DNA from: Variovorax sp. 54
GTDB lineage: Bacteria > Pseudomonadota > Gammaproteobacteria > Burkholderiales > Burkholderiaceae_C
DNA: 64,000 nucleotides
Assembly (NCBI RefSeq): GCF_002754375.1
Contig: NZ_PEFF01000001.1
Span: 2,996,501-3,060,500 of the forward strand
Direction: 5' to 3'
In this document: positions 32,977-35,982 of the stretch, one piece after another
Numbering within the stretch: position 1 is the first letter of the stretch
How the letters are laid out: each line of letters opens with the position of its first letter
Notes under the pieces: generated by a model
Database searches by the model: none
Seen by the model: only the letters and a program-made list of their open reading frames with translations
Told to the model about the DNA's origin: nothing
Program-made: the position numbers and the translations under genes

Positions 32977-32990
32977 CCGCCCCCCAAAAG

Positions 32991-33021
32991 AAAAAGGCCG
33001 CCTCCCGCGAGGGAGCCGGCC
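32991..33021 (-). terminator. Rho-independent terminator of the Roadblock/GTPase operon
   Basis: GGCCGCCTCCC (32996-33006) pairs with GGGAGCCGGCC (33011-33021) around a GCGA loop with one mismatch. Read on the minus strand it is followed by TTTTT (32995-32991), 44 bp past the last operon gene. Confidence 0.75.
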
Positions 33022-33064
33022 CGTCCATCCGCCCGAGGGCGGTGCACCTTCTATCTGTATCTAG

Positions 33065-33424
33065 TTAGAAGGTGATTTCCTTCTCGACGTCCTGCAGCTT
33101 GCGGCGGGCCAGCGCCAGGTTCGACTTCGCCTTGTCGAGCACGAAGTAGATGAACACGCCTTCCTTCTGCGCCATCGGGCGCAGCAGGTGGTACTGCTTG
33201 CCCAGCGTGATCAGGATGTCTTCGATGGTGTCGCTCAGGCCCAGCGCGCGCATCGTCTTGAGCTTGGCACGCATCACTTCGGTGTTGCCGGCGGCGGCCA
33301 CTTCGAGGTCCACGCCGGAGCCGGCGGCGCCCAGCATCATGCCGCTGGCGGAATCGACCACGGCAGCGCACAGGGCGCCGTCGGCGGTCAGAAGGTTGTC
33401 GAGGCTGGTCTGGATCGAGGCCAT
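33065..33424 (-). CDS. Roadblock/LC7 domain protein (second of pair)
   Basis: A 119-residue single Roadblock/LC7 domain: a helix (MASIQTSLDNLL), strands with AAVVDSASGMMLG, a helix with LEVAAAGNTEVMRAK and a C-terminal strand HLLRPMAQKEGVFIYFVLDK. This family dimerises and binds small GTPases, acting as GAP or scaffold (MglB of Myxococcus; CvnB of actinobacterial conservons). It is the last gene of the four-gene operon, 99 bp after the other Roadblock gene, and is followed by a terminator. The partner is probably the GTPase encoded two genes upstream. Confidence 0.85.
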   Translation of the reverse strand: MASIQTSLDNLLTADGALCAAVVDSASGMMLGAAGSGVDLEVAAAGNTEVMRAKLKTMRALGLSDTIEDILITLGKQYHLLRPMAQKEGVFIYFVLDKAKSNLALARRKLQDVEKEITF

Positions 33425-33523
33425 GGGTCAGTGAGTCCTGTTGGTGAAGTTCATGCGAATGAAAGAAGAGGGTGGAGACGTCGCATGCCAAGTCGTCTCC
33501 GCACTAGAGTTCGTAGAGGGCGC

Positions 33524-33913
33524 CTATAGCTGCGGCGCCTCGAGCGCCTGCACGCAGGCCGCCGTGCGGTACATCGCCTGCGCGAGCACCGCATCCGCGT
33601 CGGCGATGACGTTCACGACCAGCGCGGTCTCGCCGTTGTGCACCGGGCTGACCAGCGCAAAGCCGTTGTCGGTCGCGACCGTGATGCAGGTGCAGCGGCC
33701 CAGGCCGGCCTCCTGCGACACCACGGCGCCGATGGCGGCGATCGAGCTGGCCATGGCGGCGATGCGCGCGGGCTCGACGTCGCGCCGGGCGACGCTCGCA
33801 ATCTCGAAGCCGTCGGGCGTGGCCACCACCACCGAGGCGACGCCGCTCACCTCGTCGAGCACGCGGCGGGCTTCGACCGCGGCGCGCAGCTTCAGGGCGT
33901 GGGGAATCCTCAT
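33524..33913 (-). CDS. Roadblock/LC7 domain protein (first of pair)
   Basis: A 129-residue Roadblock/LC7 protein with an amphipathic N-terminal helix (ALKLRAAVEARRVLDEV), the family strand pair SVVVATPDGFEIASV, a long central helix (ARIAAMASSIAAIGAVV) and CITVATDNGFALVSPV. It differs strongly from the other Roadblock protein downstream, so this is not a recent duplication. Its start overlaps the GTPase stop by 4 bases, giving coupled, near-stoichiometric synthesis, which supports a physical GTPase-Roadblock complex. Confidence 0.85.
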   Translation of the reverse strand: MRIPHALKLRAAVEARRVLDEVSGVASVVVATPDGFEIASVARRDVEPARIAAMASSIAAIGAVVSQEAGLGRCTCITVATDNGFALVSPVHNGETALVVNVIADADAVLAQAMYRTAACVQALEAPQL

Positions 33914-34452
33914 GGCGCGGCCTCCTCGTCGAGCACTTCGATCTGCATCAGCAGCGTTTCGATCAGCGCGACGACGTCGTCCTTGCAGCGCGGATCAACC
34001 GCCAGCAGCGGCAGCACCAGCCCGCGCGCGGCCAGCGCCTGCGCGTAGTCGTCGAGCGTGGGGGTGGGGTGCGACGGCAGGCGGCTCACGCCCACGGCGC
34101 AGGGCATGCGCTCGAGCGCGCCGGCAAAGCCGTCCAGGTACTGGGCCAGGTCGGCCATCGGGTCGGGCCGGCTGTTGTCCAGCAGGATCGCCAGGCCCAG
34201 CGCATCGCGCACCAGGATCTTCCACATGAAGTCGAAGCGGCTCTGGCCCGGCGTGCCGTACAGGCGCAGACGGTCGCCGTTGTCCAGCGTCACCTGACCG
34301 AAGTCGAGTCCCACCGTGGTGGTGGCCTTGGCGACCGAGGTGTCGGCGTTGGCGACCTCGGTGGCGATCGGCGCGGTGTCGCTGATGGCCGCGATGGCCG
34401 TGGTCTTGCCCACGCCCATGGGCCCTGTGAAGACGAGCTTGAAGTCCCTCAT
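33910..34452 (-). CDS. CvnD/MglA-like small GTP-binding protein
   Basis: A 180-residue Ras-like GTPase. P-loop GPMGVGKT at residues 10-17; switch I region KATTTVGLDFG (42-52) with candidate Thr; switch II GTPGQSRF (66-73), where the usual DxxG Asp is Gly, as in CvnD-type conservon proteins; FMWKILVRDA follows as in CvnD. The usual NKxD is replaced by GVSRLP (121-126). The nearest families I recognise are conservon CvnD and related bacterial Rup GTPases, with MglA more distant. It overlaps the first Roadblock gene and follows a 211-residue protein by 13 bp. Probable role: polarity, signalling or motility switch; unproven. Confidence 0.82.
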   Translation of the reverse strand: MRDFKLVFTGPMGVGKTTAIAAISDTAPIATEVANADTSVAKATTTVGLDFGQVTLDNGDRLRLYGTPGQSRFDFMWKILVRDALGLAILLDNSRPDPMADLAQYLDGFAGALERMPCAVGVSRLPSHPTPTLDDYAQALAARGLVLPLLAVDPRCKDDVVALIETLLMQIEVLDEEAAP

Positions 34453-34465
34453 GCCGGTGCCCTCT

Positions 34466-35101
34466 TCAAGCCAGCCCGAGGCGCCGGCGGATGCGCGAGA
34501 GCAGGCCGCGCTTGTGCTGCGCGGCCTCGCCGCCCGGGGACGGGCGCGGCTCGCGCGCCTCCTCGGTCCAGGTCAGCGCGCCTTCTTCCTCCAGCAGGCC
34601 GAGGAAGGTGCTGCACTCCTGCACGTCGATGCGGCCCAGCACGCTCAGGCTTTCGGCCGATTGCGCACTCTTCGACAGGGCCGCCGCCAGCCGCACGTAG
34701 ATCGGGTGGCGCTGCAGGGTCACCTGCGAGGGCCAGCGGATCAGCGAGGCACGCGCGCGGATCGAGCGCACCATGGCGCGCGCCGCCTCGCCCGAGGTCC
34801 CGCCCGGCGTGACCTGGTTGAGCAGCGCGACCAGCTCTTCCGCATAGATGGGACGCGCCAGCGTGCGGCGCGCGGGGGCTGCTGGCGCTGCATCGCCGCG
34901 CGCCACCATCGGCACCACGAAGCGTGCCGCCGGCGTCTGCCGCTCGGCTGCCGGCGTGTCGCCGTCCACCAGCAACAGGTCGCACGGTTGCGATTCGCTG
35001 ACGGTCCAGAGGGACCGGAGATTGGAGCTGAGGCGAACGATGATCCTCAGGAGCTCGACCTCGACCTGAGGGAGCCCCATGACGCCCAAAACCAATGGCA
35101 T
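34466..35101 (-). CDS. Unrecognised protein heading the Roadblock/GTPase operon
   Basis: A 211-residue cytoplasmic protein that I do not recognise. The first ~60 residues (LGVMGLPQVEVELLRIIVRL ... CDLLLVDGDTP) alternate strands and helices like a receiver-type domain without a clear phospho-acceptor. A Pro/Ala linker precedes a helical second half (SIRARASLIRWPSQV ... FLGLLEEEGALTW) suggestive of a winged helix, ending in a basic tail. It begins an operon with a CvnD-like GTPase and two Roadblock proteins, where conservons carry the winged-helix protein CvnC; equivalence is speculative. The ATG at 35101 with AAGAAGG ahead is preferred to TTG at 35119. Confidence 0.65.
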   Translation of the reverse strand: MPLVLGVMGLPQVEVELLRIIVRLSSNLRSLWTVSESQPCDLLLVDGDTPAAERQTPAARFVVPMVARGDAAPAAPARRTLARPIYAEELVALLNQVTPGGTSGEAARAMVRSIRARASLIRWPSQVTLQRHPIYVRLAAALSKSAQSAESLSVLGRIDVQECSTFLGLLEEEGALTWTEEAREPRPSPGGEAAQHKRGLLSRIRRRLGLA

Positions 35102-35261: not shown

Positions 35262-35982
35262 ATGAACTCCGACGAAACCGGCCTGCGGGCCCTGTCGCAC
35301 CTGCACACCCTGGGCCTGCTGACCGACGCAGAACACGCGCAGGCGCTCGCGCACCCCGACCTGCCGAGCGCCGCGCTGCGCACCCCGAGCGAAGGGCTGG
35401 GCGGCCGCCAAGGACATCGTCGCGCCGGAGGCACTGCCCGGCCTGCGCGCCCGTGCCGCCCCCGGCGCGGAAGACGAGGCGCACCGCACCGTGGCGAACG
35501 CGGTGGCCATGGTCAGCGGGCAGGCGCCGGCCTGGGTGCTGCTCGAGATCAGCCTCATGGCGAACCGCCTGGAAGACGGCGTGACCGACAGCGCGCTCGA
35601 CCAGTTGCAGGCGCTGCAGCTGATCGACCCCACGCAGCACGCCCAGGCCCGCGCCCTGCTGCCCGAACAGGAACCCGAGTGGGCGGCGCCCGCTTCGCCA
35701 GCCGCCACGCTGGCCTGGGCCGTGCGCACCGGCGGGATGTCGCCCGCGCAACTGCAGACCCTCGCATCGCCGACGTCCGCGGTCTCGCCGGAAGGCCGGC
35801 AGGTCGCGGCCGACGCGCTCGCCCGCACGGAGCGCAGCAGCAGCGGCGGCAGCACGAAGACGGTGCACACCCGCACCGTGACGTGGCACAGCACGGGCGC
35901 GCCCCGTTCGTCGCGTGCCAGCAAGGTGATCGCCGTCGTGGCCGTGGTGGCCGTCGCGCTCTACTTCCTGTTCGCCCGATAG
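35262..35982 (+). pseudogene. Frameshifted gene for a C-terminally membrane-anchored protein
   Basis: Two adjacent frames read as one protein of about 240 residues. The first frame starts at 35262 (MNSDETGLRALSHLHTLGLL) and the second runs through to 35982, joining at the GGG run 35394-35396: removing one G gives a continuous SEGWAAAKDIV. The reconstructed protein has helical repeats (LHTLGLLTDAEHAQAL and LQLIDPTQHAQARALL look like two copies of one motif), a Ser/Thr-rich linker and a C-terminal TM helix VIAVVAVVAVALYFLF. Divergent from the GTPase operon. Either a real decayed gene or a one-base sequencing error. Function unknown. Confidence 0.7.

Follow-up and report, generated by a model that had tools for sequence, protein, structure and literature searches.

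The subject of this study is a four-gene operon in a 64,000-nucleotide stretch of DNA from Variovorax sp. 54 (NCBI RefSeq assembly GCF_002754375.1, contig NZ_PEFF01000001.1, positions 2,996,501 to 3,060,500 of the forward strand), which we refer to as the window. The operon runs on the minus strand from 35101 down to 33065 and encodes, in order, a protein that we call U, a small GTPase of the MglA family, and two Roadblock/LC7 proteins, RB2 and RB1 (Table 1). The original prediction, based on the letters of the window, was that a single operon holds a GTPase and two different Roadblock proteins, and this was borne out by the match of RB2 to the Robl_LC7 model of Pfam and by the predicted fold of RB1. 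It also held the module to be conservon-like and undescribed. We conclude that it was right about the kinship of the parts and wrong about membership and novelty, because of the GTPase tree, the annotations of conservon genes, and the fit of the operon to Group 3 of the MglA systems, which was published in 2014 (PMC4316618).

Table 1. The operon and its associated features (coordinates in the window)
Feature	Coordinates	Strand	Basis
U, 211 aa	34466..35101	-	AlphaFold2 (AF2) model, fold comparison, tail pattern
MglA-family small GTPase, 180 aa	33910..34452	-	motifs, tree
RB2, Roadblock/LC7 protein, 129 aa	33524..33913	-	Pfam (32 bits), alignment, solved relatives
RB1, second Roadblock protein, 119 aa	33065..33424	-	AF2, Foldseek, VIA, conservation
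99-bp gap 5' of RB1	33425..33523	-	gap of 47-110 bp in all 18 operons compared
Probable intrinsic terminator 3' of RB1	32986..33022	-	by eye

MglA GTPases were split into five groups by Wuichet and Sogaard-Andersen in 2014 (PMC4316618), and Group 3 is defined there as an uncharacterised protein encoded with an MglA-type GTPase and one or two Roadblocks in beta- and gammaproteobacteria, the GTPase having GTPGQ and lacking the lysine of NKxD, and the partner protein having a C-terminal winged-helix domain. As judged from sequence, the operon is a Group 3 MglA-type module, its composition being equal to this definition. The GTPase has the motifs GPMGVGKTT, TTVGLDFG, and GTPGQ, and residues T45, T46, G66, P68, G69, and Q70 are invariant in an alignment of 14 GTPase sequences. 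As in Group 3, a threonine stands in G2, where Group 1 has an arginine; G4 reads VSRLPSH and not NKxD; and G5, which reads DPR (DAR with one change), holds an arginine. A paralog in the same genome (type C) has NVTD and lacks the arginine. The GTPase tree had 60 rows, with no Group 1 or Group 4 reference among them; in it, the window GTPase lay among mostly proteobacterial sequences, in a beta/gamma clade apart from Group 2, and its neighbors were copies from three congeners (support 100/99). The GTPase is coupled to MglB homologs, RB2 by Pfam and RB1 by fold, and its partner, U, has a predicted C-terminal winged helix.

The GTPase and the Roadblocks thus belong to the families that had been expected of them, and in relatives the four genes occur together as a conserved set. 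A search of 61 genomes found the GTPase in 14; the genus accounts for 37 of the genomes and for 12 of those with the GTPase, our own genome counted. Within the genus there are 19 GTPase matches, and for 18 of them the operon is complete and its four genes keep one order; the 19th (genome G005) is divergent, yet RB2, RB1 and, by profile, U are present. A second operon lies at 1534.3 kb in the Variovorax sp. 54 genome, three GTPase matches were found in a congener (G016), and the subtype found in the window (at least 79% identity) occurs in 4/37 genus genomes. In an order-wide sample of 200 genomes, the GTPase profile matched in 19 (E<=1e-10) and RB1 in 11 (E<=1e-8). A pattern scan gave at least 131 relatives, and the best 80 of these, all named loci, were compared; among these 80, U was detected in 74, and a second type of Roadblock, either RB1-like or a Neisseria-type protein of ~209-219 aa, in 67. 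In the Neisseria-type layout of Group 3, the latter protein lies between the GTPase and RB2, and a weak Roadblock match was seen in two of the three that were scanned. Group 3 was defined from sequence and has barely been studied, functional work having appeared, among the papers listed, only for a bee symbiont; the operon is a real, conserved, and accessory member of it. Two actinobacterial records of Schumannella (L091, L097) hold U, GTPase, RB2, and RB1 together, which suggests that a proteobacterial module was transferred into the Actinomycetota. Three Group 3-like loci (L067, L079, L089) have a protein of 444-448 aa between the GTPase and the Roadblocks, which by eye is an ABC-type ATPase joined to the cysteine phosphatase signature HCxAGxGRTG.

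The likeness to conservons, or AGPS (CvnA-D; mfp), lies in the GTPase, a Roadblock of the GTPase-activating protein (GAP) type, and a winged-helix-like partner encoded just 5' of the GTPase, and it could be explained by a conservon that was acquired from actinobacteria and has since lost CvnA. As the original prediction had noticed, the GTPase carries CvnD-like GTPGQ and TTxGxDFG-type motifs; it is 34-39% identical to six plasmid-borne CvnDs, and the profile of RB2, a CvnB-type Roadblock, finds cvnB5 among the solved relatives (3leq, E 2.5e-9). However, these six CvnDs form one branch of the tree with three Deinococcota GTPases (support 99/94), apart from the window GTPase, and the resemblance therefore stops short of the CvnD branch. 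In the six plasmid conservons, the annotated order is a protein called "nitrate- and nitrite sensing" or "ATP-binding" (in the position of CvnA), then Roadblock, DUF742 protein, and GTPase, whereas the window has the order U-GTPase-RB2-RB1 and not CvnA-B-C-D, two Roadblocks, and no DUF742 match. The absence of CvnA had been predicted correctly: the operon consists of U, GTPase, RB2, and RB1 only, and there is no histidine kinase among the flanking genes that were scanned. Furthermore, the module is widespread in beta- and gammaproteobacteria among the matches listed. We therefore ruled out membership in the conservons, and consider an acquired conservon without its CvnA to be very improbable. 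A "Parafrankia" locus (L093) that was considered as a GTPase of the CvnD group was dropped, because it sits among Pseudomonadota in the tree; its 6.5-kb contig is probably a contaminant. The record of a conjugative plasmid of Acinetobacter wuhouensis (L111) opens with the frame of an MglA-family GTPase, with insertion sequences and an EAL-domain gene nearby.

RB1 is not detected by the Robl_LC7 model, unlike RB2, and systems like this one may have been counted with one MglB in the 2014 definition of Group 3 (PMC4316618). Its Roadblock fold was recognized from an AF2 model, Foldseek, and VIA, which ruled out the idea that it is not a Roadblock protein; a profile-profile comparison of RB1 with RB2 found nothing (probability 0.4%). 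RB2 has D34 and G35 (invariant in 11 sequences) as the Asp-Gly pair known from Group 2-5 MglB proteins, where RB1 has Ser-Gly (S27 and G28, invariant in 12 sequences). RB1 is the most conserved part of the operon, with a median pairwise identity among 18 operons of 74%, followed by the GTPase (63%), RB2 (37%), and U (29%); between the two copies in the Variovorax sp. 54 genome, the values are 73%, 60%, 32%, and 29%, respectively. Since the rate of evolution differs so much between the two Roadblocks of an operon, RB1 should have an unchanging partner, which probably lies outside the operon or is common to the paralogs. A precedent for two dissimilar Roadblocks beside an MglA-family GTPase is the MglA/MglB/MglC system of Myxococcus xanthus, in which MglC, a Roadblock that shares <9% identity with MglB, is a binding partner of MglB (PMC7949163). 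M. xanthus MglA differs in being a Group 1 protein, with an intrinsic arginine and TVPGQ (PMC4316618). The Rag-Ragulator-GATOR1 system of eukaryotes is also among the closest known systems. M. xanthus MglC is not known to lie in a four-gene operon of this kind.

In the order-wide sample, 10 of the 16 RB1 matches have a GTPase match no more than 1 kb away. Four of the six orphans are in longer frames, and two of these were counted as fusions. One (L128:3277-4515, +; genome G211) is one open frame in which Response_reg and DUF4388 (PATAN) precede an RB1-type Roadblock at the C-terminus; by its domain matches, it couples a two-component receiver to a Roadblock. The other (L125:3003-4604, +; genome G074) is likewise one frame, which starts with a BLUF domain, a blue-light sensor, and ends with an RB1-type Roadblock, in a genome that additionally holds a GTPase-RB1 pair. 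L124 was dropped for want of a recognised domain, and L126 was not counted, its start being receiver-like by eye only. Many longer RB1 frames were likewise dropped as overlapping open frames in G+C-rich DNA, and three frames (L132, L151, L157) appeared by eye to be out-of-gene sequence 5' of an ordinary RB1. A class-wide sample of 369 genomes gave 29 RB1 matches in 16 of them, our own genome included, with the GTPase or U within the 1.5-kb flank for 21 of the 29; the longest of the other RB1 frames that were looked at were no fusions. Among the literature matches listed, no title or abstract dealt with BLUF- or receiver/PATAN-Roadblock fusion proteins. The new findings are that a second Roadblock lay hidden, that it is strongly conserved, and that it is fused elsewhere to known sensor domains; together they name concrete partners and make the input side testable.

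The AF2 model of U comprises an N-terminal alpha/beta domain of low confidence, which we read as receiver-like, a confident winged helix at residues about 114-183 that was also found by fold comparison, a variable linker, and a basic C-terminal helix at about 200-207. An N-terminal domain of receiver type is a further trait of Group 3 partner proteins. U has no Pfam match; among 14 members of the family, no Response_reg match was found at E<=10, and DUF742 is not one of the 4 families matched. Two plasmid CvnCs that were scanned match DUF742 at 90.5 and 116.7 bits, with sub-threshold helix-turn-helix (HTH) matches beside it. The idea that U resembles CvnC thus holds for the broad fold class and fails for DUF742.

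Based on these observations, we think, with a probability of about 0.6, that the operon encodes a Group 3 MglA-type G-protein module with RB2 as GAP, RB1 as input Roadblock, and U as exchange factor or scaffold. The GTPase would cycle between GDP and GTP forms. RB2, with its Asp-Gly pair, is likely to be an MglB/CvnB-like GAP, by sequence and by analogy with MfpD (CvnB), a conservon Roadblock that is a GAP (PMC9769811). RB1, as a non-canonical Roadblock, would most likely bind RB2 (or the GTPase), as MglC does MglB in M. xanthus, and would couple sensory signals to the switch; that the input interface is a shared one is suggested by how strongly RB1 is conserved and by its fusions to receiver-PATAN and BLUF domains. 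U was correctly placed in the position of CvnC by the original prediction, and because it is encoded directly 5' of the GTPase, like CvnC/MfpC, it would most likely serve as exchange factor or scaffold for the GTPase, through protein contacts of its winged helix, while its basic C-terminal helix may keep it at the membrane. MfpC (CvnC), for its part, "likely functions as a GEF" (guanine nucleotide exchange factor; PMC13343842).

Several points weigh against this reading. No biochemistry for this subtype was found in the papers listed, and a second mfp paper says that a GEF role of MfpC "remains to be explored" (PMC9769811). In the model of U, the N-terminal half has predicted local distance difference test (pLDDT) scores of 37-75 by block; of the 36 families matched by 50 U proteins, 25 are listed, and DUF742 is not one of them; and U and CvnC profiles align weakly over the winged helix (hhalign probability 31%), with no other winged-helix profile for comparison. 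A tail pattern in 75 of 93 distinct U tails (shuffle mean 1.6, maximum 7) speaks for the reading of the tail, but it was written after the tails had been seen and occurs elsewhere, too, in 14/94 U proteins. The hydrophobic-moment z does not mark out the U tails, exceeding 1.65 in 16/94 (0.1 for the U of the window), versus 43/93 RB2 control tails. A first, looser pattern was dropped, as it matched 79/101 GTPase tails in addition to 83/94 U tails. RB1 also occurs without a detected GTPase in G188 and in G211, the latter genome being 89% complete.

The authors who defined Group 3 proposed a transcriptional output for it, with a Phyre2 result in support (PMC4316618). U would then be a DNA-binding protein resembling a response regulator, gated by the GTPase, and the module would control transcription. 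The confident winged helix of U fits such a role, as do its weak similarity to ArsR/SmtB-type repressor profiles (best E 0.006) and the proposal of a DNA-binding CvnD-CvnC complex (PMC8510531). However, the net charge of the recognition helix, counted without DNA-binding winged helices as a control, is <=0 in 34 of 50 U proteins and >=2 in only one, and such a non-basic helix argues against this output. We regard transcriptional control as unlikely.

Our best guess is that the output would be type IV pilus activity or polarity. A link with pili is suggested by the co-occurrence of PilM and by work on Snodgrassella, whose mgl genes have been linked with type IV pili (PMC11112851). A PilM match (E<=6e-47) was found in 19/19 of the GTPase-bearing genomes in the order-wide sample, 18 of them listed as over the cut-off. 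The association has a Fisher p of 0.007 if all 19 count; this ignores kinship, and PilM is common, being over the cut-off in 156/200 genomes. The MglA family and the same observations could also be accommodated by a switch that, like M. xanthus MglA, governs polarity or type IV pili, with U as a polar landmark. However, no pilus gene lies among the flanking genes scanned, the GTPase is patchy where PilM is general, and the Group 1 arginine is absent from G2, and we hold a switch of this sort to be possible rather than probable. PilM lies ~8 kb from the operon in G094 and ~13 kb in G166, from which we draw no claim.

Within the Group 3 interpretation, we also entertain the rather improbable idea that RB1 is an exchangeable, near-invariant hub that feeds operon-specific, receiver-PATAN, and BLUF signals into one MglA family, with a membrane-touching U in the role of CvnC and of GATOR1/Ragulator subunits. 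If so, bacterial and eukaryotic Roadblock-GTPase systems would have a common three-part layout (GTPase, Roadblock pair, and winged-helix regulator), and a light-controlled bacterial G protein, with BLUF as input, would exist. Npr2/Nprl and LAMTOR2 are presumably the proteins in the corresponding PDB chains, the search output giving entry titles alone.

With regard to the layout of the operon, the GTPase and RB2 genes overlap by 4 bp, and a leader gap of 47-110 bp precedes RB1 in 18/18 operons compared; at the remaining two junctions, the medians are 5 bp (range -4 to 100) and 13 bp (range -4 to 80). The terminator candidate 3' of RB1 is, by eye, an imperfect G+C-rich stem followed by TTTTTCTTTT, a T-rich tail. 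It was not among the sites of a consensus scan, whose sole terminator-like site lies upstream of U, one being expected by chance. A promoter scan of the locus found no promoter.

The flanking genes that were scanned encode an AsnC/Lrp regulator on one side and an ABC transporter for small solutes on the other. In a sample of 37 genomes, 23 of them of the genus, 14 genus genomes have the AsnC and solute-binding genes close together. Only about 54-205 bp separate the two matches in eight of these, three (our own, G016, and G017) have the operon, and three (G007, G009, and G014) have something else, so that the site of the operon looks like an insertion. A 163-aa open reading frame at 35491-35982 (+) in the window, with a hydrophobic stretch at its C-terminus and no Pfam match, has no tblastn match at this site in G016 or G017, where the operon is likewise present. 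In G014 (L114), a VgrG gene and an M23-peptidase gene stand where the window has the GTPase operon, and the site is thus a variable one in the genus.
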